A DNA stretch of 32,144 nucleotides from Bacteroidaceae bacterium (GTDB lineage Bacteria; Bacteroidota; Bacteroidia; Bacteroidales; Bacteroidaceae). Every line of letters starts with the position of its first letter. The stretch's first letter is position 1. This document shows, in pieces, positions 3,355 to 29,321 of the stretch. The stretch covers positions 1-32,144 of the forward strand of contig JAKSLM010000032.1 of assembly GCA_024401225.1 (NCBI GenBank). The letters run 5' to 3'. The position numbers were made by a program, and so were the translations under genes. The notes under the pieces were generated by a model that did no database searches, was not told the DNA's origin, and worked only from the letters and a program-made list of their open reading frames with translations.

Positions 3355-3385
3355 ATTGTTAATTGATAAATAATATGTATATTTG
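3355..3385 (+). promoter_or_regulatory. promoter of the partner-switch operon
   Basis: A perfect Bacteroidetes -7 box, TATATTTG (3378-3385), is preceded by ATTG (3355-3358) as a -33 element with a 19-nt spacer. Transcription should start near 3390. This places the ATG at 3363 upstream of the transcript, so the STAS gene must begin at 3429 or 3456. Confidence 0.7.
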
Positions 3386-3455
3386 CCGCCAATTATTATT
3401 CATTAAAATTATACCGGTGGAAACGGTCATGGATTCCACCACAAATCACGATAAT

Positions 3456-3758
3456 ATGGAATTAATCATCAAAAACGAAGGTGACACCATCACTGGTGTA
3501 TTGTCAGGACGCCTCGACACAGCTGCCTCAACTCAGTTTGCAACAGATATGCAGCCATTAGTTGACAATGCAGGAAAGCATATCGTACTGGACTGCAACA
3601 AACTGGAATTCATCAGTTCTTCTGGTCTGCGCCTGTTCCTCACTCTGCGCAAGGCTGCTACCGCAAAGGGCGGTGACATCACCATCACAGGCATGAACGC
3701 CGACATTCGTCAGGTGTTCACCATCACAGGATTCTTCCCTCTCTTTAAGTTTGTCTAA
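3456..3758 (+). CDS. STAS-domain anti-sigma factor antagonist (RsbV-like)
   Basis: 100 aa from the ATG at 3456. This start is preferred because the STAS fold begins at once (MELIIKNEGDTITGVLSGRLD) and the preceding bases are A-rich. An in-frame ATG at 3429 would add nine residues. The one at 3363 is excluded by the promoter at 3378-3385. The domain is a single STAS module. The segment LEFISSSGLRLF matches the phosphorylation loop of RsbV/SpoIIAA, with Ser55 as the likely phosphoacceptor. When dephosphorylated, such proteins bind and sequester an RsbW-type kinase. It is the first gene of the locus and ends 13 nt before the receiver-phosphatase gene, its probable activator. The RsbW-like partner lies at the far end of the same locus (12756-13166). 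Confidence 0.85.
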   Translation: MELIIKNEGDTITGVLSGRLDTAASTQFATDMQPLVDNAGKHIVLDCNKLEFISSSGLRLFLTLRKAATAKGGDITITGMNADIRQVFTITGFFPLFKFV

Positions 3759-3771
3759 GTAAGAAAAGCGA

Positions 3772-4935
3772 ATGGCAATAAAAATATTAAGTGTTGATGA
3801 CGAGGTGGACCTTGAGCTCCTCCTCACCCAATACTTTCGCAGAAAAATACGCAAGGGCGAATACGAGTTCTTCTTTGCCCACAATGGCTTGGAAGCCTTG
3901 CAGGTGCTCCTCCAGCATCCTGATATCGACATCATCCTGAGCGACATCAACATGCCGGAGATGGACGGTCTCACCATGCTCACAAAGATAAACGAGATGC
4001 GCAACCCTGCTCTCAAGTGCATCATGGTTAGTGCCTATGGCGATATGGACAACATACGCCACGCCATGAACAACGGCGCCTTCGACTTTGCCACAAAGCC
4101 TATTGACCTCGATGACCTTCAGGTCACAATCGACAAGGCCATAGAGCAAATCACCTACATACGCAGCGCACAGAAGGAGCACAAGCAGCTGGTAGACATA
4201 CAAGGAGACCTCTCGGTAGCAAGAGAAATCCAGAAGGCCATACTACCTCGCAACTTCACACTCAAGATGCCTGATGAGGGCGGAGTGGAGATAAGCGCCT
4301 CGATGAATGCTGCCAAGGATGTGGGCGGCGACTTTTACGACTTCTTCAAGATTGATGATGAGCGCTTTGCATTCACAATAGCCGACGTGAGCGGCAAGGG
4401 AGTGCCGGCTGCCATCTTCATGGCTGTGAGCCGCACGCTGATCAAAGCCACAGGAATGCAGGGTGTGCCTTCGGCCGAATGTATGTGCAAGGCTAACGAT
4501 ATGCTGAGCGGCGAGAGCGTAGACAATATGTTTGTCACCGTGTTCTACGGAGTATACAACGCCAAGACAGGTGTGATCGACTTCACCAATGCCGGCCACA
4601 ATCCACCTTACGTATTGCACAACGACGGCAGCGTGGAGGCTCTGCCTGTAGCCGGCAACATCGTGCTGGGAGCATTTGAGGGGCTACCTTTCACTTCAGG
4701 CAGCATCACCCTCCAGCCAGGCGAGACGCTCTACATGTTTACCGATGGTGTAACAGAGGCAGAGAACATGAACCACGAACAGTTTGGAGAAGCATATCTT
4801 AAGAGTTCGCTGGAACAGCTCAAGGGTGCATCGCCAAAGGACATCATCGCTGACATAGAGCAGAAGGTAAAGGCCTTTGCCGGCGAAGCTCCTCAGAGTG
4901 ATGATGTGACTCAACTCGTAATCAAGAGAAAGTGA
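3772..4935 (+). CDS. response regulator with PP2C/SpoIIE-type phosphatase output (RsbU-like)
   Basis: 387 aa, cytoplasmic. The receiver domain (about 1-125) carries the acidic pair D9/D10, the phosphoacceptor D58 in ILSDINMPEMDG, and K109 in FATKPID, so it looks functional. A short helical linker (about 126-160) contains the LSVAREIQKAILP segment typical of SpoIIE-type regulators. The PPM phosphatase domain (about 165-387) keeps the metal-binding Asp residues: D187 in VGGDFYDFF, D205 in IADVSGKGVPAA, and D377/D378 in QSDDVTQLV. It should dephosphorylate the upstream STAS protein when its receiver is phosphorylated, most simply by the kinase at 9420-10265. Its TGA overlaps the GTG start of the next gene by 4 nt, indicating translational coupling. 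Confidence 0.92.
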   Translation: MAIKILSVDDEVDLELLLTQYFRRKIRKGEYEFFFAHNGLEALQVLLQHPDIDIILSDINMPEMDGLTMLTKINEMRNPALKCIMVSAYGDMDNIRHAMNNGAFDFATKPIDLDDLQVTIDKAIEQITYIRSAQKEHKQLVDIQGDLSVAREIQKAILPRNFTLKMPDEGGVEISASMNAAKDVGGDFYDFFKIDDERFAFTIADVSGKGVPAAIFMAVSRTLIKATGMQGVPSAECMCKANDMLSGESVDNMFVTVFYGVYNAKTGVIDFTNAGHNPPYVLHNDGSVEALPVAGNIVLGAFEGLPFTSGSITLQPGETLYMFTDGVTEAENMNHEQFGEAYLKSSLEQLKGASPKDIIADIEQKVKAFAGEAPQSDDVTQLVIKRK

Positions 4936-6590
4936 AAATACCACGTGCGAACATATACTCCTTAGCAGGACTTGCAGTAATCGCAGCCACTGCGGTGATA
5001 AGTTATCAGGTTGGCAAAAGCCAGTCGGACAGCCTCATCGCGTCGCTTACCGAGCAGGTCGACTCGCTTCGCAAGGGAGAGATGGACGCAGCGATAGTGA
5101 AGCGTGTCAGCCAGCAGATGGAGGACATTGCCTATCAGCAAAAGGCAGTATCGGACAAGCAGCGCGAGCACGCCGAGGAGCAGTCGAAACTCGCCATCAA
5201 GATGCGCGACATGGCCGAACAGGAGAGCCGTGCAGCACGCGAGGCAGAAGGCAAGGCTGTGGAAGCTCTCGATGAGGCTGAAGCACAGCGCAACAATGCC
5301 CGCCAGCAGCAGTTGGTGGCTGAGCAGCAGCGCGACCAAGCCACCCGTTCGAAAAACAGGGCCGACACCCTCAACTACCGAATGCAAGGACGTACATTGG
5401 CTTCCACATCGCTCATACAGCGCGATGCCAACGATCTCGATGTGTCCGATGCGTTGGCCTACACGAGTTGGTATTTCCTGAACAAATATGAAGGCAACGA
5501 CTTCTTCTCCACCACTTTCCGTGCCTTGCAGAAAGCAACAGGCAGCATGTACCAGAGCACGATGCAGAAGCATGGAGCTGTCAATGGAGTGGCTGTAGTT
5601 CCCAACCTGTCAAAGCAATGCGTGGCCGTATCGAACTACGGAGAGATAGAACTGCTGACAGACAAGGGCGATCGCATAGCATCGAAGGTGCTGCTATCCG
5701 ACAACGCGTACGACTTCCGCGACGTATGGGCAGGGCAGAAAGGCATCTATGCTCTGAGCGTCAAGGGAACACTCTGCGTGGTAAGCTACAACGGAGCAAA
5801 GATTCACACCGTGACACTCCCTGCTGACACCTACGTCCGACTCATCCATGTAGACAGCAACACGCTTGCTGCCGTAGGCAGAAAGTCAATGTGCTGGTAC
5901 ACATTCTCCACAGGCGAGGTGAGCAAACCGCTGAACTTCCAAAGCCAGATGTCGGCTGTTGCCAAGCGCAAGGACGTGATCAGCGTGTTCTTTGCCGATG
6001 GAAAATATGCAGAGGTGGACAAGGCGCACAAGATAGTGCAGAAAACTCCTATCACAAAGGAGATTGTGACCGTTGCCCACTACGATGAGGAGCTGGACTG
6101 CTTCTATTTAGGAACAAAGGACGGACCTGTCTACCCTTTCAACCGATACAATCGCAAGGTAGAGCTGTTGAACGCCCATGTAGCACAGCCTACGTGCATT
6201 GCCAATGTGGGATCGATACTCATCACCGGAGGTTACGACAAGTCGGCATTTGTGTGGCAGATGGACAATCTCTACTTCGAGTCGGGACTGAACTTCCGCC
6301 AGGAACTTGCGCTTCAGAAATCAGCCAAGGCTCCTGAGCGCATGTCGAACTTGCCAAAGGAATGGGTAGTGCCTGCAGAGTTGGATTTTGACGGATGGAT
6401 ACTGTCGCTCTGCGGTGATGCCAGAAACAGAACCGTATGGGCAGGTACATCGACCGGAAAGGTGGTACGCATGATGGCAGATACAAAGGACATGGCTGCC
6501 ATCCTGCACGCCAAGATGAAGCGAGGCCTGAGCGAGAGCGAATGGACCAGATACGTCGGATCCGCTATTCCTTACGTAAAAATGAAATAA
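4932..6590 (+). CDS. membrane-anchored coiled-coil / WD40-like beta-propeller protein
   Basis: 552 aa, starting at a GTG that overlaps the preceding stop (GTGA). A single N-terminal hydrophobic helix (residues about 8-27) is followed by a long Glu/Gln/Arg-rich coiled coil (about 30-150). Next comes a helical block, GRTLASTSLIQ...DALAYTSWYFLNK, then weak beta-propeller repeats (about 210-530; for example TCIANVGSILITGGYDKSAFVWQMD, a clear WD40-type blade). The order coiled coil, LAxxSL...LAL-helices, WD40 blades resembles the C-terminal part of nSTAND-WD40 signalling proteins, but there is no NTPase domain. I infer a scaffold or sensor within this locus. The side of the membrane is uncertain: the helix could be an uncleaved anchor with the propeller in the periplasm. 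No catalytic residues are recognised. Confidence 0.7.
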   Translation: MKIPRANIYSLAGLAVIAATAVISYQVGKSQSDSLIASLTEQVDSLRKGEMDAAIVKRVSQQMEDIAYQQKAVSDKQREHAEEQSKLAIKMRDMAEQESRAAREAEGKAVEALDEAEAQRNNARQQQLVAEQQRDQATRSKNRADTLNYRMQGRTLASTSLIQRDANDLDVSDALAYTSWYFLNKYEGNDFFSTTFRALQKATGSMYQSTMQKHGAVNGVAVVPNLSKQCVAVSNYGEIELLTDKGDRIASKVLLSDNAYDFRDVWAGQKGIYALSVKGTLCVVSYNGAKIHTVTLPADTYVRLIHVDSNTLAAVGRKSMCWYTFSTGEVSKPLNFQSQMSAVAKRKDVISVFFADGKYAEVDKAHKIVQKTPITKEIVTVAHYDEELDCFYLGTKDGPVYPFNRYNRKVELLNAHVAQPTCIANVGSILITGGYDKSAFVWQMDNLYFESGLNFRQELALQKSAKAPERMSNLPKEWVVPAELDFDGWILSLCGDARNRTVWAGTSTGKVVRMMADTKDMAAILHAKMKRGLSESEWTRYVGSAIPYVKMK

Positions 6591-6638
6591 AGTATACTGC
6601 ATAAATCAAGTTAAAGAAGAAGTATTAGATACGTTAAA

Positions 6639-9407
6639 ATGAAGAAGAGTATACGATACATATTATCAGCATTATTCTTTGCCCTGTTTGCCGTAGCCAT
6701 TGAAGCTCAGACAAGCAGCGCAAAGGATCTTGGTATACCTTTCTTCAAGACATTCTCCGCAACGGAATACGGTGCTCACAGCCGCAACTTCGACATCCTG
6801 TGCGACTCCAAGGGACGAGTATACATAGCCAACTTTGAGGGCCTTCTGGTGTACGATGGCGAGGAATGGGAGGTGATGCATACACCGGGCATCTCGCGAG
6901 TCACAAGCCTGCACAAGGGACAGAGCGGCAAGATATGGTTTGGTGGAAACAACGTGCTTGGATACGTGAGCGTAGCTGACAGCATCAAGCCCGTGTTCGT
7001 GACCGATGAAAGCAACCGCCAGCTCAACTTCGGCGAGGTGCGCCGCATCGAGGAAGGTGGAAAGGGAGTCCTGTTCACCACAGCCAAGGGAAGCGCTTAC
7101 ACCTATACCAATGGCAAGGTAAAGTTCATGAAGGACTTCTACGACGATCCAGATGAGAAAATAGTATGGAACGGCATAGACATCAACGAGCGTCTGGAGA
7201 TCAAGGACCTTGGCATGATAGTCTACGCCACAGTCCATCACGGCTTGATCATCACCGACATGGATGGTCAGCAAATATACAACATCACAGAAGCCAACGG
7301 CCTGTGCAGCAACATAATCTCTGCCATTGCATACGATGGCAAGGGAAGCGTATGGTGCACGACCAACAATGGTATCTTTGTAGTCAACGTATCGTCCATC
7401 TACACCCATTACGGAGAGATGGAAGGCTTGAAGGGACACGTGACAAGCATACTTAAGGTTGACGGCAAACTGCTCGTTGGTACGCTTCAAGGACTTTACG
7501 AACTCAGCGATGCCACCTTCCACAAGGTGCCGGGAGTGGATCAGGCGTGCTGGAAGATTGTGGAGACAAAAAGGCACACAGCCCTTACAGCCACAGCGGA
7601 TGGTGTGTTCGAATACAAGAACGGCAGCACCCCCGTACAGATCACTACAAAGCACACACTTGCACTCTATGTGGAGGATGAGAATTCCTTCCTCATGGGA
7701 AATCTCGACGGCATCTACAGACACACAGCAGGCAAGGGCGACGTGCTCATCAATAAGATACAGAATGTAGTCAAGTTTGATGATGACGGAAAGGGCAACA
7801 TCTGGGCTCTCACGCTCTACGGCGAAACCTACATAATGCCAAAGGATGGCAACAGCTTCCAGAAGAAGCAGAACGACAATCTCACCCTCATGCTCAACTA
7901 CACCGATGACAACGGAGTGGAGTGGAAAACGAGAAACAACGGTAATGGATTGACACGCACCGGCACCACAGACGAAATGGAGAGTTGGCTGAGACCATTC
8001 GACGACTGCATCGTTCAAGCCATGATGGTATCAGACGATGTGGCATGGATAGGCGGCAACTTCGGTCTCTATCGCTTCGACATAGGCAAAAGCAAGAAGT
8101 CGAAGCACTTCGTTCCAAAGGTCGACATACGCTACTTCATGCAGAGCCATCGACTTGTCAACTTCTGCGTAGCAAACGACAATGTCAACATACTGGGAAA
8201 GACGCTCTACAGCTACCGTCTGAAGGAAAACGGCGAATGGTCCAAGTGGCGTACTGACCAGGACATCGAACTCAGCAACATGGCCTATGGACGCTACCAG
8301 CTCACGGTAAGGTCTATGGATCCTTATGGTCAGATTTCCGTATCGGAGACCAAGAACTTTGAGATTCCATTCCCTATATTTGTACGATGGTACTTCCTCC
8401 TGCTTTACCTATTATTATTAGGACTGGCATTATACGCCATCGGTCGCTATCGTATGCAGCGTCTGGTCAAGGAGCGCAAGCATCTGGAGCAGGTGGTCAA
8501 GGAGCGCACTCAGGAAGTGGTGAAGCAGAAGAATGAGATCGTGGCTCAGAAGAACGAGATAGAACAGAAATCGCACGAGTTGGAAGACGCTCTCAAGGAG
8601 CTTCGCGCCACTCAGCAGCAACTCATCCGCAAGGAACACGAAGCCACGGTCGGCAAACTCACCAAGGGTCTCATCGACCGTATCCTCAACCCGATGAACT
8701 ACATCAACAACTTCTCGCACCTCACCATCGGACTGGCCAAGGACCTGAAGGAGAACCTTGAGGACGATGAGGACAAGATGACTCCCGACAACTTTGAGGA
8801 CAGCATGGATGTCATTGAGATGATGAGCACCAACCTCGAGAAGATAGAGCAGCACGGCCTCTCGACTACCCGCACGTTGAAGGCTATGGAAGAGATGCTC
8901 AAGGATCGTTCCAACAAGATTGACAAGCTCGACATAGCTGCCATCTGCCAGCAGAACATAGACATGGTGCACAACTACTTCAAGGACGACATCAGCAGGC
9001 TGGGTATCAGCATTGAGTGGAACCGTCCTGATGCTCCGGTGATGGCAAACGTAAATGCCGACTTGCTGAGCCGAACATTCATGTCGATGCTTGCAAACTC
9101 CGTGTTTGCAGTAAACAAGAAGGCCGAAAAGGCAGGACAAACTGGCTATCAGCCTGTGATCCGACTTGCAATAACGCCAGGTGCCAACGGATCGCCAACA
9201 CTTATCAGCATATACGATAATGGTATAGGTATTGAAGAAAGCATCATTGACAAGATCTTCGACCCATTCTTCACCACCAAGCCAACGGCTGAAGCACCTG
9301 GAGTCGGACTCTATCTGAGCCAGCAGACCATCCAGGATTTCGGCGGAACAATAACAGTAAAATCCTCTAAGGACGAGTATACGGAATTCACCATTTCGCT
9401 TCCCTAA
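6639..9407 (+). CDS. periplasmic beta-propeller sensor with degenerate histidine-kinase module
   Basis: 922 aa. A signal peptide (1-23, ending IEAQ) is followed by a two-component-regulator-type propeller (about 30-490; blades such as NIISAIAYDGKGSVWCTTNN). A Y_Y_Y-like domain follows (about 515-575; LYSYRLKENGEWSKWRT), then one transmembrane helix (about 580-605), a coiled coil (about 607-670), a dimerisation/HisKA-like region and an HATPase domain (to 922). The layout is that of a hybrid sensor kinase, but there is no receiver or HTH domain. The H-box reads GLIDRILNPMNY: the phosphoacceptor His is Asp680. The ATP lid keeps N820, the G1 motif DNGIGI (860-865) and GVGLYL (888-893). It therefore probably binds ATP but cannot accept phosphate on His. 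Its kinase half is similar to the next gene, 12 nt downstream, which does have the His. It may act as a signal-receiving partner of that kinase. Confidence 0.88.
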   Translation: MKKSIRYILSALFFALFAVAIEAQTSSAKDLGIPFFKTFSATEYGAHSRNFDILCDSKGRVYIANFEGLLVYDGEEWEVMHTPGISRVTSLHKGQSGKIWFGGNNVLGYVSVADSIKPVFVTDESNRQLNFGEVRRIEEGGKGVLFTTAKGSAYTYTNGKVKFMKDFYDDPDEKIVWNGIDINERLEIKDLGMIVYATVHHGLIITDMDGQQIYNITEANGLCSNIISAIAYDGKGSVWCTTNNGIFVVNVSSIYTHYGEMEGLKGHVTSILKVDGKLLVGTLQGLYELSDATFHKVPGVDQACWKIVETKRHTALTATADGVFEYKNGSTPVQITTKHTLALYVEDENSFLMGNLDGIYRHTAGKGDVLINKIQNVVKFDDDGKGNIWALTLYGETYIMPKDGNSFQKKQNDNLTLMLNYTDDNGVEWKTRNNGNGLTRTGTTDEMESWLRPFDDCIVQAMMVSDDVAWIGGNFGLYRFDIGKSKKSKHFVPKVDIRYFMQSHRLVNFCVANDNVNILGKTLYSYRLKENGEWSKWRTDQDIELSNMAYGRYQLTVRSMDPYGQISVSETKNFEIPFPIFVRWYFLLLYLLLLGLALYAIGRYRMQRLVKERKHLEQVVKERTQEVVKQKNEIVAQKNEIEQKSHELEDALKELRATQQQLIRKEHEATVGKLTKGLIDRILNPMNYINNFSHLTIGLAKDLKENLEDDEDKMTPDNFEDSMDVIEMMSTNLEKIEQHGLSTTRTLKAMEEMLKDRSNKIDKLDIAAICQQNIDMVHNYFKDDISRLGISIEWNRPDAPVMANVNADLLSRTFMSMLANSVFAVNKKAEKAGQTGYQPVIRLAITPGANGSPTLISIYDNGIGIEESIIDKIFDPFFTTKPTAEAPGVGLYLSQQTIQDFGGTITVKSSKDEYTEFTISLP

Positions 9408-9419
9408 TCATCTATATAC

Positions 9420-10265
9420 ATGGAACAGGAACTAGAATCACTAAGGCAGCAGGTTGCAACCCTACAGGAACAGTTGCACACACAGGAGAAGATGGCCTCG
9501 TTGGGTCTTCTTAGCGCTGGTATTGCCCATGAGATACAGAACCCTCTCAACTTTGTCATCAACTTCAGCAAGATGTCGGCAAAACTCCTTGACGACCTTG
9601 AGGACATAGTAGGCGACTGTGCCGACCGACTCGATCAGGATGATGCAGAGGAACTGGAGGAGATATCGACCGACCTCAAGGACAACCTGCATAAGATACA
9701 GGAACACGGCGAACGTGCCATAAGCATCATCCGAGGCATTCTGCTCCAGAGCCGCGGAAAGGATGGCGAATTCCTTCCTACCGATGTCGGCAATCTGGTA
9801 CACGAATACGTGTGGCTCTCTTACCATGCCATGCGTGCCAACGACAAGGACTTCAACATCTCCATCCATGAGGAGTGTCAGGCAAACATGCCAAAGATGA
9901 TGGTCATCCCGCAGGATCTCAGCCGTGCTGTGCTCAACGTGATGAACAACGCCTGCTACACAGTCAGGGAGCGCACAGCAACCGAGTCGGCCGACTATAC
10001 TCCATCCATCAGCGTCAAGGTGAGCTACGATGACAAATTGCGCATCTCCATCAGCGACAACGGCATGGGAATGTCGCAGGAGATAAAGGACAAGCTCTTC
10101 AAGACCTTCTTCACCACCAAGCCAGTAGGACAAGGCACCGGACTCGGACTATCCATCACCCACAACATCATCACAAGCCGGCACAATGGCGAACTCATCG
10201 TCGATTCGGAGGAAGGAGTGGGAACCACATTCACATTCATCATACCAGTCAAGACCATAAAGTAA
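9420..10265 (+). CDS. soluble sensor histidine kinase, intact catalytic motifs
   Basis: 281 aa with no membrane segment. A short N-terminal coiled coil (1-27) leads into HisKA: EKMASLGLLSAGIAHEIQNPLNF, with phosphoacceptor His37. The DHp second helix has the Bacteroidetes-type KIQEHGERAISIIRGIL. The HATPase domain shows N177 (N-box), D213 in DNGMGM (G1), KTFFTTKPVGQ (F-box) and GTGLGL starting at 239 (G2). It has no input domain of its own, so it probably takes its signal from a partner. The obvious candidate is the adjacent propeller protein, with which it shares the same kinase-region layout. The likely phosphate recipient is the receiver-phosphatase at 3772-4935, the only receiver in the window. 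Confidence 0.93.
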   Translation: MEQELESLRQQVATLQEQLHTQEKMASLGLLSAGIAHEIQNPLNFVINFSKMSAKLLDDLEDIVGDCADRLDQDDAEELEEISTDLKDNLHKIQEHGERAISIIRGILLQSRGKDGEFLPTDVGNLVHEYVWLSYHAMRANDKDFNISIHEECQANMPKMMVIPQDLSRAVLNVMNNACYTVRERTATESADYTPSISVKVSYDDKLRISISDNGMGMSQEIKDKLFKTFFTTKPVGQGTGLGLSITHNIITSRHNGELIVDSEEGVGTTFTFIIPVKTIK

Positions 10266-10297
10266 AGACGAGTACACCTCGTAACTTATTTATATTA

Positions 10298-10362
10298 ATA
10301 ATGTAAATGATCACGCTTCGTAAATCAATCATACCGATAATGTAAATGATCACGCTTCGTAA
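10298..10362 (+). repeat. 26-bp direct repeat, 39-bp period, across the TonB-receptor start codon
   Basis: The 26 bases at 10298-10323 are identical to 10337-10362. The offset of 39 nt keeps the reading frame. The second copy contains the receptor's start codon (10346). The first contains an equivalent ATG at 10307. A tandem duplication of the gene's start region is the simplest reading. Confidence 0.85.
10307..10345 (+). CDS. possible 12-residue leader peptide made by duplication of the gene start
   Basis: The ATG at 10307 opens MITLRKSIIPIM and stops at TAA 10343-10345, directly next to the receptor ATG at 10346. The first five residues are identical to those of the receptor. If it is translated, ribosomes would finish exactly at the real start, which would allow re-initiation. 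It may equally be a non-functional relic. There is no independent evidence that it is expressed. Confidence 0.3.
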   Translation: MITLRKSIIPIM

Positions 10363-12727
10363 CATATTCATGCTTTTGCTGTTTGCCTGCCCGGTACTCG
10401 CCGTTCATGCACAAACCGCCGACGATGACTATCAGGCAGCAGAGAAGGCCTATGAGTTCGGACACTTCGCACAGGTCGACTCACTCCTTACCAGTAACGT
10501 CAAGCGACTGAAGGGAGTGAACCGCATCAATGCCTACCGACTGCTGGCACTTAGTGCGCTCTATCAGGACCATACCGACATGGCTGAAGCGTATGTTACA
10601 AAGCTTCTTGCTCTCGATCCATTCTATACCGCCTACAACGATTCTCCACGATTCTCCGACCTTCTCGAACGTCTGAAGAAAGGCAAGACCACCATCACCA
10701 CGGCTTCGCAGCAGGAAGAGACCCTCGAAGAGGTTCCTGTGCCTACCACCCTCATCACGGAGGACATGATACGCGCATCGGGAGTGCAAACCCTTTCAGA
10801 ACTGCTTCTGCTATTCGTACCAGGCATGTCCCGCGTGGCAGGCGGAGAGGACAATGTAGCCATGCGAGGTGTATACGGCATGGGACAGGAAATGATCCTG
10901 GTACTTGAGGACGGCCACCGGCTGAACAGCCAGAGCACCAACACGCAGCCTATGGACTACCGCATCAATCTCGATAAGGTGAAGCAGGTGGAAGTGTTGC
11001 GAGGTCCGGCATCATCACTCTACGGCAACGTGGCCCTCACCGCTGTGGTCAACGTGATCACCAAGTCGGGAGGCGACTTTGATGGCAACATGGCAGCAGG
11101 ACTTACGGACAAGAACAACACCTTTGGACTCAGCTACCTTAACGGTCGAGGCAACCTGCGCACCGACTACCTTGCATGGATTTCCATGTACAACTCCAAA
11201 GGCGAGCGATACATGGACGGTCAGTATCCACGCTACATAGGCGGATTCAACAGCAATCCAGCCTTCGATCTCGGACTCAAGATACGCTGGGACGACTTCT
11301 CGCTCCGCGTGGCAGGACGCCATGCCAAGCCAGTACCATTCTACAACATCATCGATGCCGGAGGCTATTCGTACGACAAGTATGGCAAGCAGAACGGTGA
11401 AGCACCGGGCCAGTCGCACACTCACATTCGTTTCGACATCGACTACAGCCACAAGTGGGATGCCTTCTCGGTGTCAGCATCCGTGTTTGGCAACCTGGAA
11501 AATACACAAATCTACAACGTAGTAGGCGACTCCATCAACCCACGAGTAGCAAGCACCTTGGTGCAGTACGCGGGAGTAGAGACGGGAGCATCGGATGCAC
11601 GCACCGTAGGACTATGGGAAAGCATCGAGATGAAGACCTACACCTTCGGCGGATCGATAAGTGGTGCCTACAAATACGCAATGCCACGCTACGGCATGGA
11701 TGGATCGCTCCTCGTAGGTATTCAGTACGAATGTCTTGTGCCTGCTTACGCCAACTTCAAACTCGGATCGGACTACAACACAACACGTGTGTTCAGCAGC
11801 AGCCAATTTCACGATGGAGCAGAGCATTCCATATCGTGCTTCGTTCAGTTGAAGCACCATCTGACCAAGCGTCTCATCTTCAACGGAGGCGTACGCAGCG
11901 ACCATCGTACACGATACGACAACGACCACATCAACACCTTTGCACCCCGAGTGTCGTTCATCTGGCTTACAAACGATGTGCTCAATCTGAAGGCAGGCTA
12001 TTCTCATTCGTTCGTTGATGCACCTTACGTCTACCGCGCATGCAAGATTCCACTGTTCTCTGGCCCTTACCTCGAACCGGAGAAGATGGATGCCTACAAC
12101 ATATCAGCCAATTTCGACTGGCCTTCCATCAACATGAAATACGAAGCCACAGCATTCTACAACCACGCAAGCGACCTCGTATACTACAATCTGCGATCGT
12201 CCGAAGCCACATTCATGAACTCCGGTACGATTGAAGTGGCCGGAGTGGAACAGATGATCCAGTACGCAGCACCTCGTACGCTGATCAGCCTCAACACCAC
12301 CTATCAGTATCCATTGCGTATCGAGAACTATCTTGGCGCAGGATCGCACAATGCTGTCAATGTGCCACACCTTGTGGCAAACCTCACAGCAGCACAGCAA
12401 GTGGTCGACAGCAAGCGACTTGGCAAGGTGTGGCTTAGAGCCAATCTGCATGCACAGTCGTCATGCGATCTCTTCGCCATGCGAACAGAGGAGATCATTA
12501 TCGCCATGCTCGAGGAAGAAAATGCATCACCTACCGTATTCTATCTGCATCAGCCGTCAGTAGCCATACTTGGAGCGGGAGTAGAGTGGGCTTTGCCATT
12601 CGGACTCGCAGCAGCCATCGATGCTCACAATCTGTTCAACACACGCTACAAGGTGGGTGGACTGAGTCGTGAGGGAGTACCTCAGCAGGGATTCAACCTC
12701 ATAGGAAAATTAAGATTCAAATTCTGA
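10346..12727 (+). CDS. TonB-dependent outer-membrane receptor with TPR-like N-terminal domain
   Basis: 793 aa. A signal peptide (1-22, ending VHAQ) is followed by a helical TPR-like region (about 25-112; AEKAYEFGHFAQVDSLL, then LALDPFYTAYNDSPRFSDLLERL). A putative TonB-box-like stretch (ETLEEVPVPTTLI) precedes the plug (about 128-240; MIRASGVQTLSELLLLFVPGMSRV, VEVLRGPASSLYGNVALTAVVNVITKSGG). A 22-strand-type barrel follows, ending in aromatic LRFKF. It lacks the SusC carboxypeptidase-like domain and has no SusD partner. The TPR-like extension should sit in the periplasm and could contact the propeller sensor or TonB. Its position between the kinase and the RsbW-like gene implies a role in signalling, in uptake of the sensed compound, or in both. 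The substrate is unknown. Confidence 0.9.
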   Translation: MITLRNIFMLLLFACPVLAVHAQTADDDYQAAEKAYEFGHFAQVDSLLTSNVKRLKGVNRINAYRLLALSALYQDHTDMAEAYVTKLLALDPFYTAYNDSPRFSDLLERLKKGKTTITTASQQEETLEEVPVPTTLITEDMIRASGVQTLSELLLLFVPGMSRVAGGEDNVAMRGVYGMGQEMILVLEDGHRLNSQSTNTQPMDYRINLDKVKQVEVLRGPASSLYGNVALTAVVNVITKSGGDFDGNMAAGLTDKNNTFGLSYLNGRGNLRTDYLAWISMYNSKGERYMDGQYPRYIGGFNSNPAFDLGLKIRWDDFSLRVAGRHAKPVPFYNIIDAGGYSYDKYGKQNGEAPGQSHTHIRFDIDYSHKWDAFSVSASVFGNLENTQIYNVVGDSINPRVASTLVQYAGVETGASDARTVGLWESIEMKTYTFGGSISGAYKYAMPRYGMDGSLLVGIQYECLVPAYANFKLGSDYNTTRVFSSSQFHDGAEHSISCFVQLKHHLTKRLIFNGGVRSDHRTRYDNDHINTFAPRVSFIWLTNDVLNLKAGYSHSFVDAPYVYRACKIPLFSGPYLEPEKMDAYNISANFDWPSINMKYEATAFYNHASDLVYYNLRSSEATFMNSGTIEVAGVEQMIQYAAPRTLISLNTTYQYPLRIENYLGAGSHNAVNVPHLVANLTAAQQVVDSKRLGKVWLRANLHAQSSCDLFAMRTEEIIIAMLEEENASPTVFYLHQPSVAILGAGVEWALPFGLAAAIDAHNLFNTRYKVGGLSREGVPQQGFNLIGKLRFKF

Positions 12728-12755
12728 TAACAAACAAAACATACTGTATATTGCC

Positions 12756-13166
12756 ATGAAGACTCTGTGTATTACAAACAATGTCGAAGAGCTTCCAAAG
12801 CTTGCGTTCTTCTTGGACGAGATAGCTGATGAAGACGGTCTTGACACAAGTCTTGTGTTCAATCTGAACCTTGCTCTGGAGGAAGCTATGACCAATGTAG
12901 TCATGTACGCCTACCCAGATCAGCAAGATATGCCTATCACTCTTGATTACACAAAGGAGGGCGACACCCTTGTATTCTGCTTGCGCGATCAAGGCGTGGC
13001 ATTCGACCCTACTACCGGGGGCGATGTTGACATTACACTATCAGCAGAAGACCGCCCGATAGGCGGCCTCGGCATCTTCCTCGTAAAACAGATAATGACA
13101 GATGTCACCTACCAGCGCATCGGCGACTGCAATGTGCTAACGATGACCAAACAGATAGAAGGCTAA
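12756..13166 (+). CDS. RsbW-like anti-sigma factor serine kinase (HATPase_c_2)
   Basis: 136 aa, cytoplasmic, the usual length for RsbW/SpoIIAB-type GHKL kinases. Visible motifs are the N-box LALEEAMTNVVMYAY (E43, N47), the G1 box RDQGVAFDP (D78, G80) and the G2 box GGLGIFLV (103-110). Such kinases phosphorylate a STAS protein, here probably the one at 3456-3758, and bind a sigma factor or another target. No sigma factor gene is present in the window, so the controlled target must be elsewhere or of another kind. It starts 28 nt after the receptor gene and is the last gene of the locus. It is followed directly by the 22-bp-period palindrome array. Confidence 0.88.
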   Translation: MKTLCITNNVEELPKLAFFLDEIADEDGLDTSLVFNLNLALEEAMTNVVMYAYPDQQDMPITLDYTKEGDTLVFCLRDQGVAFDPTTGGDVDITLSAEDRPIGGLGIFLVKQIMTDVTYQRIGDCNVLTMTKQIEG

Positions 13167-13168
13167 AG

Positions 13169-13246
13169 CCCTTGCAAGGAATCGAACAACTCCTTGCAAG
13201 GAAACATCGAACTCCTTGCAAGGAAACGTTGAAGTCCTTGCAAGGA
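13169..13246. repeat. four 12-bp palindromes at an exact 22-bp period
   Basis: TCCTTGCAAGGA occurs at 13191-13202, 13213-13224 and 13235-13246. A copy with one changed outer base lies at 13169-13180. Start-to-start spacing is exactly 22 bp each time. The 10-nt spacers are related in the first three units (AACATCGAAC-like) and differ in the last. The last copy is followed by GTTTTCC, so it can also act as a terminator. The array fills the gap between the convergent ends of the partner-switch locus and the envC-like gene. Confidence 0.9.
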
Positions 13247-20038: not shown

Positions 20039-23932
<3,894 letters not shown>

Positions 23933-23950
23933 CATCAATTCATACCCCTC

Positions 23951-23991
23951 CGATGCCTCCGACCGCACAGTTGGAGGCATCGTTGTTTTTT
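23951..23991 (+). terminator. terminator between the GH2 and susC genes
   Basis: A 13-bp stem, 23951-23963 (CGATGCCTCCGAC) with 23970-23982 and one G-T pair, has a 6-nt loop and is followed by TTGTTTTTT. It separates the GH2 transcript from susC, which has its own promoter. Confidence 0.85.
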
Positions 23992-24061
23992 CACATATTC
24001 GGTATGCGAATATAGTCTTTTTACCAGTATTTAACCACGAAATCATCAATTTATATCAAAA

Positions 24062-24094
24062 TGTAACATACGATGAAACATTTGTAATATGCGA
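24062..24094. promoter_or_regulatory. direct-repeat operator candidate upstream of susC
   Basis: TGTAACATACGA (24062-24073) and TGTAATATGCGA (24083-24094) match at 10 of 12 positions, with both differences transitions. They are spaced 21 bp start to start, two helical turns. They end 26 bp before the -7 box, where an activator would bind. No regulator for this locus is obvious in the window. Confidence 0.45.
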
Positions 24095-24120
24095 CCGAAC
24101 GGGGTATTTAACGTTTTTTG

Positions 24121-24128
24121 TACTTTTG
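24121..24128 (+). promoter_or_regulatory. -7 box for susC
   Basis: TACTTTTG followed by CA is a full match to TAnnTTTG, 65 nt before the ATG. No TTTG -33 box is seen at 19-21 nt, which fits an activator-dependent promoter. Confidence 0.7.
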
Positions 24129-24193
24129 CAGCGAAATTTTTCGTCAAGCGAAACAAAACTTCATTTTACTAACTAAAATACCTTTTATTAATT

Positions 24194-27100
24194 ATGCAAA
24201 GAAACTTTAGGAAGACAGCAGTAGCTCTCGGACTGACAGCATGCATCGGTATGTGCCCAGCCCTTCAGATCACTGCTTCGGCTGCAACCTCGGTCGAGGC
24301 TCAACAGCAGCAAAAAGTTATCAAGGGTAGTGTGTACGACGCGGCAGGTCCGCTGATGGGTGCAGCTGTCATTGAGAAGGGTACCGCAAATGGTGCAGTA
24401 ACCGACGTTGACGGTAACTTTACCATCAAGCTTACCAATCCAAACTCATCCCTCATCGTATCATACCTCGGTTATGTGACTCAGGAGGTATCGATAAGCG
24501 GAAAGACTTCCGTACACGTAGTCCTCAAGGAAGAGGGACGCAACCTCAACGACGTCATCGTGATCGGTTACGGTACTCAGCGTAAGGAAGCCGTTACAGG
24601 TTCGGTAGCTTCGGTAAGCTCAGAGAAGCTCATGGAGAACCCATCATCCAACATCACTCAGGCTCTCCAGAACCGCATCGCCGGTGTCGACATGCAGCAG
24701 ACCAATTCACAGCCAGGTGCTGAGATGCAGATCCGCATCCGTGGCCAGCGCTCACTCTCTGCATCCAACGATCCTCTGATCGTGCTCGATGGTATTCCAT
24801 TCCTCGGCAACCTCTCCGACATCAATCCTTCCGACATCAAGTCGCTCGACATCCTCAAGGATGCATCGGCAACAGCCATCTACGGTTCGCGTGGTGCCAA
24901 TGGTGTGATCATGATCACTACCAACAAGGGTATGGTTGCTCAGCCTGCAAAGGTGACATACAATGGTTATGTAGCATTCAAGACTCTCTTCAACGAATAT
25001 CCAATGATGAAGGGCGAGAAGTACTCACAGATGCGTCAGCTTGCTGGCAAGTTCGGCAACGGTGTTGACGAGCACGAGGGCAACGACTACAACTGGCAGA
25101 AGGACTTCTATCAGACAGGTATCTCGCACAACCACAACCTCACAGTTTCGGGCGGTACCAATGGTGGTAGCTACAGCTTCGGTGGTACTTACAGCCACGA
25201 TGAGGGCGTCATCCCTACTCAGGCATTCGACCGCATCACACTCCGTGCCAACATCGAGCAGCGCATCGGCGACTACTTCAAGGTAGGTCTCTCATCAATC
25301 AACTCATACAACAAGCGCAACGGTATGCACCTTGGTATGTACGGCATTCTCCAGATGACTCCACTCGTTGATCCAAGCAACCTTTCCGACCCTTCAGGCC
25401 GTGTAGCTCACATGGCATCGGACGACGTTTGGTTCCTTACTAAGGATCGCATCGTTGACAACAAGGACAGCTGGTTGCAGCACAACACAGGTCTCGGTAC
25501 ATTCAACACTATCTTCGCTGAGGTTTCATGCCCATGGGTAGAAGGTCTCAAGTACCGCGTCAACCTCGGTCTCAACTACCGTGGCAACAAGACTGGTAGC
25601 TTCACAGGCAAGGGTATCAACACAGTCAATGTAAACGAGCTCTCATCTCAGTCAATTCAGCAGAGCGAGTACACTAACTACGCAGTTGAGAACGTACTCT
25701 CGTACGACCGTACATTCAACGAAAAGCACAACATCAGCGCCGTAGGTCTCTACTCAGTTGAGCAGACACGCTACTCAAGCAACCACATGAGCAGCCGCGG
25801 TGTGCCAGAGTACTTCCAGTACTACAACATCGGTGCAGGTAAGCAGGATGTGACTGTCAACCCTAACTACCAGAACTACTGGCAGGCAGGTCTCATGTCA
25901 TGGATGGGTCGTGTGATGTACAACTACGACAACCGTTACATGGCATCGGTAGCACTCCGTTCCGACGCATCTTCACGCCTTGCAAAGGGTCATCAGTGGC
26001 ACACTTACCCAGCTATCTCTGCAGGTTGGAACATCGCAAAGGAAAGCTTCATGGAGAATCAGGACATCGTTGACAACCTCAAGTTCCGCGTAGGTTACGG
26101 ACAGACAGCCAACCAGGCAATCGCAGCCTACACTACACTCGGTAACCTCGGTACTACTCCTTATAACTTCGGTGACCTCGGCGACCAGTCGTACGACACA
26201 GGTTACTATCCAACCAAGCTCGCCAACAAGGAACTCGGATGGGAGTACTCAGAGACATACAACTTCGGTCTTGACTTCTCACTCTTCAAGGGTCGCTTGA
26301 CAGGTACCCTCGAGTACTACATCATGAACACTCACGACCTCCTTCTCAACGTATCCCTCCCAAGCTCTGCAGGTGTATCAAGCTATACAGCCAATGTAGG
26401 TAAGACTCGCAACAAGGGACTCGAAGCTACAATCAACGGTATCATCATCGAGAACAAGAACGGATGGACATGGGAAGCAGGCATCAACATCTCTGCCAAC
26501 CGCAACAAGCTCGTTGCACTTGCTGATGGCAACGAGAAGGACGAAGCCAACGGATGGTTCGTAGGTCACCCAATCGACGTACTCTACGACTACGAGAAGG
26601 TAGGCCTCTGGAACAGCGAAGATCCAGAATTCCAGTACCTCGACATCTTCGAGCCAGGTGGTAACGAAGGTATGATCAAGGTTAAGGGTGGATACTACAC
26701 TCAGGAAGAAGCTGACGCTGGTGTCATCCCAGAAGGCAGCAAGGTAGGCGACCGTCGTGCTATCAACACTTACGACCGTCAGATCATCAGCCTCGAGCCA
26801 AACTTCGTAGGTGGATTCAACACTCGCGTAGCATACAAGAACTTCGACCTCAACGTGATCGGTGCCTTCCAGTGTGGCGGTAAGATCATCTCTACACTCT
26901 ACAGCGGCAACGGTTACCTCAACATGCTCACAGGCCGTCGTGGTCAGGTAGACGTTGACTTCTGGACTCCAGAGAACAAGAACGCAGAGTTCCCTAAGCC
27001 AGGTGGCATCCAGTCGGGCGATAACCCTAAGTACTCTTCTACTCTCGGCATCTTCGATGGCAGCTACGTTAAGATCCGCACCATCTCCCTCGGCTACAAC

Positions 27101-27343
27101 TTCAAGGGCGAGTGGATGAAGAAGGCTGGTATCAACAACCTCCGCCTCTACGCTACAGTACAGAACCCATTCGTCATCTACTCAAAGTACTACAGCATGA
27201 GCGGACTCGATCCAGAGCCAAACTCAATGTCTAACCAGGGTCAGTTCCACGCAGTAACAATGGGCGGCCACGCACTTCCAGTCGTTGGTACCAACGCACC
27301 TTGCACTCGCAACTATCTGATCGGACTTAATCTGTCATTCTAA
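24194..27343 (+). CDS. susC: SusC-family TonB-linked outer-membrane glycan transporter
   Basis: 1049 aa. An extended signal peptide (1 to about 40) is followed by a carboxypeptidase-D-like regulatory domain (about 43-115; VIKGSVYDAAGPLMGAAVIEKGTANGAVTDVDGNFTIKL). The SusC TonB-box/linker is EEGRNLNDVIVIGYGTQRKE. The plug (about 135-240) includes NRIAGVDMQQTN, IRIRGQRSLSASNDPLIVLDGIPF and DASATAIYGSRGANGVIMITTNKG. The rest is the beta-barrel, ending IGLNLSF. No N-terminal STN domain is present, so anti-sigma (FecR-type) control is unlikely. It forms a pedal-bin transporter with the SusD protein encoded 16 nt downstream, importing oligosaccharides. The GH2 enzyme upstream suggests galactose-containing glycans. 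Confidence 0.96.
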   Translation: MQRNFRKTAVALGLTACIGMCPALQITASAATSVEAQQQQKVIKGSVYDAAGPLMGAAVIEKGTANGAVTDVDGNFTIKLTNPNSSLIVSYLGYVTQEVSISGKTSVHVVLKEEGRNLNDVIVIGYGTQRKEAVTGSVASVSSEKLMENPSSNITQALQNRIAGVDMQQTNSQPGAEMQIRIRGQRSLSASNDPLIVLDGIPFLGNLSDINPSDIKSLDILKDASATAIYGSRGANGVIMITTNKGMVAQPAKVTYNGYVAFKTLFNEYPMMKGEKYSQMRQLAGKFGNGVDEHEGNDYNWQKDFYQTGISHNHNLTVSGGTNGGSYSFGGTYSHDEGVIPTQAFDRITLRANIEQRIGDYFKVGLSSINSYNKRNGMHLGMYGILQMTPLVDPSNLSDPSGRVAHMASDDVWFLTKDRIVDNKDSWLQHNTGLGTFNTIFAEVSCPWVEGLKYRVNLGLNYRGNKTGSFTGKGINTVNVNELSSQSIQQSEYTNYAVENVLSYDRTFNEKHNISAVGLYSVEQTRYSSNHMSSRGVPEYFQYYNIGAGKQDVTVNPNYQNYWQAGLMSWMGRVMYNYDNRYMASVALRSDASSRLAKGHQWHTYPAISAGWNIAKESFMENQDIVDNLKFRVGYGQTANQAIAAYTTLGNLGTTPYNFGDLGDQSYDTGYYPTKLANKELGWEYSETYNFGLDFSLFKGRLTGTLEYYIMNTHDLLLNVSLPSSAGVSSYTANVGKTRNKGLEATINGIIIENKNGWTWEAGINISANRNKLVALADGNEKDEANGWFVGHPIDVLYDYEKVGLWNSEDPEFQYLDIFEPGGNEGMIKVKGGYYTQEEADAGVIPEGSKVGDRRAINTYDRQIISLEPNFVGGFNTRVAYKNFDLNVIGAFQCGGKIISTLYSGNGYLNMLTGRRGQVDVDFWTPENKNAEFPKPGGIQSGDNPKYSSTLGIFDGSYVKIRTISLGYNFKGEWMKKAGINNLRLYATVQNPFVIYSKYYSMSGLDPEPNSMSNQGQFHAVTMGGHALPVVGTNAPCTRNYLIGLNLSF

Positions 27344-27359
27344 AAAAACCTTGATAACA

Positions 27360-29321
27360 ATGAATAAGAAGAATATATTACGCTTTTGCGGTTTAGCAAT
27401 TGTATCAGCCATGGCGCTTTCTTCATGCTCAGACGTACTTGAGGAGCAGCCACGAAGCGGTTACGATCCAACATATTTCACTACAGAGGACGGCGTAAAG
27501 GGCGGTCTTACATCACTCTATGCCCACCTTCGCAACCTCTACGGTCAGGCATACTACTTCACATCATGTGAGGCAGGTACCGACGAGTACACATGGGGCC
27601 ACTCAGCCGATGGCAACCAGAAGGACATCGACATGTCAGGAGTCGGCAACCTCACATCCACATCAGTACGCTCCGACGCACTCTGGGGCCAGGCATTCAC
27701 AGAGATCAACACAGCTTGCGCCGTTATTGAAAACGCAAGCGCCGTAGGTATCGACGAGTCACTCGTAGCCGAGGCACGATTCTTCCGTGGATTCTACTAC
27801 TTCAACCTCGTGCAGACATTCGGAGGTGTGCCACTCGATCTCGGAGGCGGCGAGCTCCACTCCAACGACTCACCTAAGCGCACATCAGTACGTAACACAG
27901 TCGATGAGGTATACGAGAAGGCCATCTTCCCTGACCTCGACTCGGCAGTAGTCAAGCTTCCTATCACCCCACGTGTAGTAGGTGCCGTATCACGCACCAC
28001 AGCACAGCTCTATCTTGCCAAGGCATACCTTACTTACGCATGGTGGCTCGAAAATCCAAACGACATCGCTACCTATCCAGCTACAAGCAAGCGCGACAAG
28101 TCACAGGCAGCAAAGTACTACCAGTTGGCTTATGAACTTGCAACAGAAGCAATCGCCGAAAACGCCAAGAATGGTACTTACAAGCTTCAGGACACATATC
28201 TTGACGTAAACTTCTGGCAGAACGACCGTAACGCCGAGTGGCTCCTCTGGGCTGACCACACAGTCAACAACGACCTCTACAATGGTGGTGGTCTCGGTTG
28301 GGGTGGCGGTGGCGCACCTGAGAACTTCGCAGGATGGTTCACACAGTGGAACTACTGTGGTGACATGCGCGGTGACTTCGCCGATGGTTCAAACGGCAAC
28401 CCTGTAATGCGTGAAGCATGCCAGGCACTCGGTCGTCCATGGACACGTATGGCTCCAATCCCTGATGCACTCAAGAAGTTCACCAACGTTGACAAGGACT
28501 CTCGCTGGGACGGTACATTCACTACTGAGTATCGTTGTAACTTCGCAAAGGGCGGCAACAAGAACGACTATGTAAAGGGTGCTAACGGCGCAGAAATCAG
28601 AAACGGCGAGACATTCCTCCAGTTCCTCTCGTACGACGATTCTAACGTCAAGTACGACCCAAAGAACGGTAACATCAACGCCGGCGTACTCCCAGGTCAT
28701 CCAGAATTCGTAATCAACATCAGCGACATCAGCCGCCAGGCATACCCAGGCGTATGGAAGCACATCGGCCACCGTACCGACCGTGGTGAGGCTACAGAGC
28801 TCGGTAACCCTAACGGATCGTCACCACGTCCATTCGTTATCGCTAAGTTCTCAGAATTCTACTTCATCGCAGCCGAGGCTGCAGTCAAGCTTGGCAACAA
28901 CAAGGCAGCATACGACAACATCATCCAGATCCGTGCACGTGCAGGTAAGTGGAAGACAAGATTCAACGACTACACATACCTTGTAGGTGGTACAGGCTAC
29001 AAAGACCTTGAGGTCGTTGAGGACTACAGCCAGGATATGATCAACGCAACTCCAGAGAACATCACCATCGAGTACATCCTCGACGAGCGTCTCCGCGAGT
29101 ACTGGGGTGAAGGCTACCGTTGGTTCGACCTCGTGCGCACACAGATGTGGGACAAGCTCGCAAGCGTATACCACATCAGCGATGCTAACGGCCGTGAGCC
29201 AAAGGAAGTAAAGCGCGACATCAAGAAGCACTACTACCTCCGTCCTATCCCAAGCGGCATGCTTGATGCTCTCCAGATGAGCGATCAGGAAAAGGCAGCT
29301 TACCAGAACCCAGGTTATTAA
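27360..29321 (+). CDS. susD: SusD-family surface glycan-binding lipoprotein
   Basis: 653 aa from the ATG at 27360; the TTG at 27351 is less likely and adds only three residues. The lipobox ALSSC gives Cys23, followed by SDVLEEQPRSGYDPTYFTTEDGVKGGLTSLYAHLR, the usual SusD start. The SusD signatures AEARFFRGFYYFNLVQTFGGVPL and FYFIAAEAAVKLGNNKAAYDNIIQIRARAG are present. Near the C-terminus, TIEYILDERLREYWGEGYRWFDLVRTQMW is the hallmark RagB/SusD segment. It sits on the outer membrane as the lid of the SusC transporter. At 653 aa it is longer than the typical 500-600. The transcript ends at the hairpin 29360-29394. Confidence 0.95.
   Translation: MNKKNILRFCGLAIVSAMALSSCSDVLEEQPRSGYDPTYFTTEDGVKGGLTSLYAHLRNLYGQAYYFTSCEAGTDEYTWGHSADGNQKDIDMSGVGNLTSTSVRSDALWGQAFTEINTACAVIENASAVGIDESLVAEARFFRGFYYFNLVQTFGGVPLDLGGGELHSNDSPKRTSVRNTVDEVYEKAIFPDLDSAVVKLPITPRVVGAVSRTTAQLYLAKAYLTYAWWLENPNDIATYPATSKRDKSQAAKYYQLAYELATEAIAENAKNGTYKLQDTYLDVNFWQNDRNAEWLLWADHTVNNDLYNGGGLGWGGGGAPENFAGWFTQWNYCGDMRGDFADGSNGNPVMREACQALGRPWTRMAPIPDALKKFTNVDKDSRWDGTFTTEYRCNFAKGGNKNDYVKGANGAEIRNGETFLQFLSYDDSNVKYDPKNGNINAGVLPGHPEFVINISDISRQAYPGVWKHIGHRTDRGEATELGNPNGSSPRPFVIAKFSEFYFIAAEAAVKLGNNKAAYDNIIQIRARAGKWKTRFNDYTYLVGGTGYKDLEVVEDYSQDMINATPENITIEYILDERLREYWGEGYRWFDLVRTQMWDKLASVYHISDANGREPKEVKRDIKKHYYLRPIPSGMLDALQMSDQEKAAYQNPGY

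Follow-up and report, generated by a model that had tools for sequence, protein, structure and literature searches.

The 32,144-nucleotide (nt) contig JAKSLM010000032.1 of a Bacteroidaceae bacterium (assembly GCA_024401225.1, 3.0 megabases, 84% complete), analysed here in its entirety and called the window, encodes a propeller-type histidine kinase, HK1, whose phosphoacceptor histidine is replaced by aspartate, next to a sensor-less histidine kinase, HK2, that retains its histidine. We show here that a sensor kinase of this kind, a second kinase and a protein combining a receiver with a phosphatase domain form a recurrent core. In the window this core is accompanied by the parts of a partner switch, and we favor, with a probability of roughly 0.6, a chain from envelope to cytoplasm in which HK1 would steer HK2, HK2 the receiver-phosphatase and the latter a STAS protein and its RsbW-like kinase, with a target that is probably not of the SigB type. 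The locus is a clean natural case for the role of a histidine-less histidine kinase, as it offers a conserved replacement, a usual neighbor, a defined receiver and a readable output (the phosphorylated STAS protein). It also makes the targets of partner switches testable in bacteria where no SigB-type sigma factor is found.

HK1 (6639..9407, 922 residues; plus strand, as all genes of the locus) consists of an N-terminal hydrophobic segment, a Reg_prop/Y_Y_Y propeller, a further hydrophobic segment at about residues 576-604 and a kinase core in which Pfam matched HATPase_c and not HisKA; no receiver or DNA-binding domain was matched by Pfam in the chain. Its H-box reads GLIDRILNP, with Asp680-Arg681 (codons 8676..8681) where His-Glu is expected, and Asp680 stands at the phosphoacceptor position in 11/11 aligned orthologues. 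HK2 (9420..10265, 281 residues) is a soluble kinase core with HisKA (PF00512) and a complete HATPase_c domain (PF02518, E value 2.6e-22), in which neither a sensor domain nor a hydrophobic segment was matched, and its H-box GIAHEIQNP keeps His37-Glu38 (codons 9528..9533) in all 11 orthologues. The preliminary description of this DNA had spoken of a kinase-like propeller sensor; the propeller and the HATPase_c domain are indeed there, but the label understates the missing phosphoacceptor. Sequencing error or a one-off decay of HK1 can be rejected, because the same Asp-Arg recurs in 53 cores of many assemblies. Two other histidines of HK1 were considered as substitutes and discarded: His694 is invariant in 11 close relatives, but Lys, Gly and Asp take its place in L106, L122 and L152, and His739 has a counterpart in normal kinases.

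The recurrence of the pair was surveyed with an alignment of the receiver-phosphatase, scanned against named genome contigs; the best 80 of 520 relatives, among the matches listed, were kept and joined by ten sister loci, the loci of an order survey and the window. Kinase cores were read with an expression that demands the NP of the H-box and the asparagine four positions on (+4 Asn), and cores without NP are missed. A kinase frame lies near the receiver-phosphatase in 78 loci of this set, with a D-type (Asp) kinase followed by an H-type (His) kinase in 47, D-D-H in two, H alone in 22, H-H in one, D alone in one (L100, at a contig end) and one unreadable frame in five. The unreadable frames of L093 and L120 end before the H-box at a contig end, those of L122 and L152 were missed by the expression and carry Asp on reading by eye, and L106, where HK1 occupies two frames, has a D-type kinase followed by an H-type kinase. 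The rows with a D/H pair number 52, or 51 without L181, a near-copy of L113, and again 52 with L205; L096 and L153 are close kin. Altogether 129 cores were read near a receiver-phosphatase, 53 with Asp-Arg (L181 included) and 76 with His-Glu, and no other letters occur at either of the two positions. The columns of the adenosine triphosphate (ATP) site, N, DNGxG and GxG, are conserved at 0.98-1.00 in the D-type cores. A second survey did without the receiver-phosphatase as query and used a degenerate DNA motif for D-R-I-L-N-P-x-N-Y, which is strict and misses variants such as DRIFNP in L151. It occurs at eight places in seven of 295 genomes of the order and at five places in three of 395 genomes of the phylum (two of them already known from the order), with none for the reversed control in either set. 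An H-type kinase is nearby at 10 of the 11 distinct places, which fall in eight genomes, and nine also have a receiver-phosphatase, on the same strand.

Among closer relatives the locus was followed with its coiled-coil/WD40-like propeller protein (4932..6590, 552 residues, one N-terminal hydrophobic segment), which is identified by its gene position in sister loci and by a weak Pfam propeller match (E value 1.2e-4, below the family cut-off). Apart from the window's own genome, strong matches came from 10 of 36 other genomes of the genus and weak ones from two more, while 24 genomes from other families in the order gave no strong match. The five middle genes, from the receiver-phosphatase to the TonB-dependent receptor, stand in identical order in all ten sister loci retrieved in this way.

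The D-type cores appear to have one origin. After removal of the H-box, 72 kinase cores, picked to thin near-copies, were analysed with IQ-TREE; D/H loci contributed 52 of the rows (27 D-type and 25 H-type) and single-kinase loci the other 20. All 27 D-type rows fall on one side of a branch (support 100/98), and they do so in all 200 bootstrap trees; FastTree likewise recovers them as monophyletic, with low node support (0.238). The paired H-type kinases form two groups, one of 21 rows (100/100) and one of four (95/87), the latter made up of Larkinella, Hymenobacter and two genomes of the order to which the window belongs, and the D partners of these four loci group together weakly (89/46). 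L140 has a single propeller kinase with histidine in a run of TonB receptor, formyltransferase-domain protein, HEAT/MFS protein, kinase, receiver-phosphatase, RsbW and STAS, and L144, L151 and L205 have a similar run with a D/H pair (TonB receptor, GNAT and HEAT/MFS families checked on L205). Single-kinase relatives of this kind are expected if sensing and phosphoacceptor were later split over two proteins. It seems plausible, on an unrooted tree, that a sensing kinase was duplicated, after which the histidine disappeared from one copy and the sensor from the second. The widest version of this picture would be an old Bacteroidota lineage of single origin with Asp-Arg and a preserved ATP site, most members of which would serve a sensor-less kinase as its obligate sensing partner, with the sensing role and the phosphoacceptor of a former single propeller kinase split between the two proteins and the pair gating a receiver-phosphatase switch with a target not of the SigB type; taken as a whole it is tentative, and we rate it slightly below even odds.

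Receiver (PF00072, E value 5.4e-23) and SpoIIE/PP2C (PF07228, 4e-49) domains are joined in one protein of 387 residues (3772..4935), as the preliminary description had proposed. The likely phosphoacceptor of the receiver, Asp58 (codon 3943..3945), is present in 11/11 aligned orthologues, and five PP2C motifs are found. The PP2C domain spans residues 195-386, and no kinase or anti-sigma domain follows it in the same protein. The closest solved structure is 3eq2 (E value 6.3e-25), besides 3f7a, under the title 'probable two-component response regulator', which we take to be a Pseudomonas receiver-PP2C protein. Upstream lies a STAS-only protein of the RsbV-like anti-sigma-antagonist type (3456..3758, 100 residues), supported by PF01740 (E value 1.9e-16 on the frame 3363-3758) and by the NCBIfam model TIGR00377 ant_ant_sig above cut-off; its motif ISSSGLR contains a serine cluster at residues 54-56 and thus the predicted switch-site serine, and its start is most likely ATG 3456 (or 3429), not TTG 3363. 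The RsbW-like kinase (12756..13166, 136 residues, stop at 13166) matches HATPase_c_2 (PF13581, E value 8.7e-28) and, below cut-off, the NCBIfam RsbW models. Hence all core parts of an RsbU/RsbV/RsbW-type switch are present, and the seven plus-strand genes claimed for the locus are borne out by reading frames and Pfam matches; the gaps between them measure, in order, 13, -4 (a 4-nt overlap), 48, 12, 80 and 28 nt, in agreement with the spacing described before.

Both STAS and RsbW lie in the examined stretch of eight of the 52 D/H loci (window, L110, L113, L118, L121, L152, L183 and L184), stretches that are unequal in length and partly related by descent, so that no probability is attached to this count. 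They sit one at each end in the window and before the phosphatase in L110 and L184, these three being the loci that hold all seven families. In L113, L118, L121, L152 and L183, STAS, RsbW, a short D-type kinase (frames of 367-393 residues), HK2 and the receiver-phosphatase form one compact run. L094 (Phocaeicola) holds STAS and RsbW too, with the D-type kinase at the end of the stretch. The proposed link of the kinase/phosphatase locus to STAS and RsbW is therefore supported, in several arrangements. A fixed seven-gene operon, however, has to be rejected because neither STAS nor RsbW turned up at the locus in any of ten sister species. Of the seven-gene set described at the outset a conserved unit of five genes stands; routine separation of the genes, named there as grounds for giving the proposal up, is nearly what we see for STAS and RsbW in these species, while the five middle genes stay together. 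Elsewhere in the sister genomes a strong HATPase_c_2 protein occurs in 10/10 (best E values of 1.4e-22 or lower), and nine of the ten have a short frame that matches STAS, the tenth, G005, being 65% complete. The closest relatives of the window's STAS protein are the sister STAS proteins of G025, G023 and G015 (E values 5e-42 to 2e-39).

From the parts, residues, conservation and gene order, all of them documented in the sequence, we infer every contact between the proteins and the direction of each step. HK1 would sense via its propeller, which the hydrophobic segments place in the periplasm; the TonB receptor and the WD40 protein may contribute, as gene order suggests an input role for both. 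It should be unable to autophosphorylate because His-Glu became Asp-Arg, although the ATP-site residues and the +4 Asn are kept, and would for this reason act through HK2; the two kinases would most likely pair through their coiled coils and helical bundles. HK2 would then phosphorylate Asp58 of the receiver-phosphatase, which in turn would strip the phosphate from the STAS serine; unphosphorylated STAS would capture RsbW, and RsbW would release its target. We prefer to have HK1 steer HK2 because of the usual pairing, the lack of a sensor in HK2 and the conserved ATP site. Several observations weigh against this chain. HK2, with its complete ATPase domain, might work alone. Strong WD40 matches are missing in 26 of the 36 same-genus genomes, so that the locus is patchy, and the ten sister loci have no STAS or RsbW match at E < 0.01. 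Furthermore, a TPR-type D kinase (L203, 7889-9913) has no neighbor matching the kinase or receiver-phosphatase profiles in a 19-kilobase stretch, and another D-type kinase (L204, 8646-10835) has H-type kinases nearby but no matched receiver-phosphatase. Both come from one 7.2-megabase genome of the window's class.

The chief rival has HK1 act directly on the receiver-phosphatase, either as a signal-gated phosphatase of the phosphorylated receiver or as a reader in the manner of DivL. The +4 Asn belongs to the HExxN phosphatase motif and is present in 53/53 D-type cores, a count that is not independent as the expression required it; in the 11-row alignments it is invariant in HK1, and the HK1 stretch NPxNYxNNF resembles NPLNFVINF of HK2. 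A phosphatase motif HE/DxxN/T is given in the excerpts of PMC3591291, and those of PMC4211667 describe DivL as binding phosphorylated DivK without showing kinase activity. The same excerpts report that DivL was no phosphatase of phosphorylated DivK, and direct action on the receiver explains the usual pairing with a sensor-less HK2 less directly, so that we consider this rival serious yet unlikely.

Less probable still is that the locus carries STAS and RsbW along as passengers, or that the two mainly serve the second SpoIIE phosphatase of the genome. That protein (Cache-HAMP-SpoIIE, 610 residues, L030:8988-10820, contig C29) has its own HAMP and Cache matches, and relatives of it in sister species carry a fused RsbW domain, absent from the contig C29 protein itself, and a neighboring STAS gene (L198, 752 residues, Pfam-confirmed; L197, a 741-residue frame). 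The sister loci without STAS and RsbW also fit this idea. Against it, the 84% complete genome assembly shows no stand-alone STAS besides the window's (its second STAS match is part of a 476-residue frame) and no strong HATPase_c_2 besides the window's RsbW (six weaker ones reach E values of 2.7e-6 or worse), and STAS and RsbW join D/H loci in several arrangements. It is very improbable that Asp680 of HK1 has itself become a phosphoacceptor: the Arg that adjoins this Asp in 53/53 D-type cores does suggest a pair under constraint, but a core built to phosphorylate histidine would need to form an acyl phosphate, a reaction without a precedent known to us, and the Glu of His-Glu, the general base, is lost as well.

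As to the output of the proposed chain, a scan of 20 window proteins gave no sigma-factor match. The preliminary description had left the output open on this ground; SigB- and SigF-type factors are now disfavored. Of 11 genomes searched for sigma region 3 (PF04539), 10 contain a single match each, in frames of 290-325 residues, and the eleventh, G014, shows none, which makes a second sigma factor of the SigB/SigF type unlikely as target; these counts come from incomplete assemblies and do not cover extracytoplasmic-type sigma factors, which have no region 3. A common output gene was not found beside the unlinked STAS and RsbW genes in the 11 stretches, of 14 retrieved, whose reading frames were listed. 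Similar transporter-like frames follow a STAS-RsbW-STAS run in five of these 11 (L185, L186, L193, L194, L195), and in L186, the only one in which families were tested, they comprise a citrate/sulfate-type permease, a YidE-type transporter and a DsbD/ArsG-type membrane protein; the permease match in the window's genome is weak (E value 7.4e-4). In L110, from a metagenome-assembled genome of the Prevotellaceae, RsbW, STAS, a RelA/SpoT-domain protein and the receiver-phosphatase stand in close succession (8104-11158), an arrangement that may connect the switch with (p)ppGpp. In L094 (11198-16820) and L184 (13936-17638) STAS adjoins a glycogen-debranching-type enzyme, RsbW is followed by a DJ-1/PfpI protein, and the receiver-phosphatase is near. 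The RelA/SpoT-domain protein, the debranching-type enzyme and the anion transporters may hint at a target.

The TonB-dependent receptor (10346..12727, 793 residues) has Plug (PF07715) and barrel (PF00593) domains; the plug begins at residue 127, preceded by about 100 extra N-terminal residues, and the closest solved structure is the colicin I receptor 2hdf (E value 2.3e-20). A 39-nt tandem near-duplication (77%; 10274-10351) ends at the start of its gene and places a copy of the first codons upstream. Closely after the TonB receptor, L021 (12281-14740) and L091 (18620-21061) encode an AMP-binding protein with a carrier domain, and L029 a peptidase M49. The region contains 15 consensus promoter-like matches, compared to a shuffled mean of 10.6. 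Four CCTTGCAAGG palindromes with 22-nt spacing directly follow the RsbW gene (13170-13246); the genome contains 19 copies of a related 14-mer, CTCCTTGCAAGGAG (reversed control 0), and the 10-base core of the palindrome is absent from 10/10 sister stretches. They are a genome-wide palindromic repeat. By Pfam, the opposite-strand genes on either side, YceG-like upstream and an M23 peptidase downstream, look unrelated to the seven genes. An ordinary polysaccharide-use locus further on (20039-29321) comprises a large GH2 beta-galactosidase, which has F5/8-type domains, followed by a SusC/SusD-like pair.

No paper on this type of locus was found among the open-access papers listed, judged by titles and the beginnings of abstracts. 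Already known are receiver-PP2C partner switches, histidine-less or inactive kinases that act on another kinase, and split kinases. The hybrid two-component propeller sensors of Bacteroidota unite a kinase with a receiver and a DNA-binding domain in a single polypeptide; HK1 shares with them the Reg_prop/Y_Y_Y propeller followed by a kinase core, but has no matched receiver or DNA-binding domain and Asp in place of His. The RsbU-RsbV-RsbW-SigB system of Bacillus is likewise built from a PP2C phosphatase, a STAS antagonist and a HATPase_c_2 kinase, whereas our locus has a receiver domain as input, no sigma-factor match in the window and no second region-3 match in the genome. Closer are HptB-HsbR-HsbA and CrsR-CrsA of Pseudomonas and Shewanella, in which, according to excerpts of the reports (PMC6482189, PMC8256260), two-component signalling controls a receiver-PP2C protein that in turn acts on a STAS protein, and 3eq2/3f7a is the nearest solved relative of our phosphatase. 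HsbR and CrsR are described there as carrying the kinase/anti-sigma domain in the same protein (PMC6482189), while in the window the phosphatase ends at PP2C and RsbW is a separate gene; the input there is described as coming from HptB, an Hpt protein on which several kinases converge (PMC8256260), instead of from a D/H kinase pair. A receiver-PP2C partner switch has also been predicted in Campylobacterota, as an excerpt states (PMC9239204). Divided kinases offer further parallels. In the portions consulted, CheA3/CheA4 of Rhodobacter distribute kinase functions over two proteins, the one with His lacking the ATPase (PMC3591291), whereas HK1 and HK2 both keep theirs. The inactive pseudokinase ChrS of Corynebacterium heterodimerizes with its active paralogue HrrS and is reported in the part seen to have lost its ATPase domain by a frameshift in a laboratory-evolved strain (PMC9491836); in HK1 the His is gone, the ATPase is kept and the change is old. 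DivL of Caulobacter, a kinase core without phosphoacceptor that acts on the kinase CckA, is described in the excerpts as a weak binder of an ATP analogue (PMC4211667). It has Tyr where HK1 has Asp-Arg, and unlike DivL, the D-type cores conserve their ATP-site residues and usually have their partner kinase encoded in the next gene.

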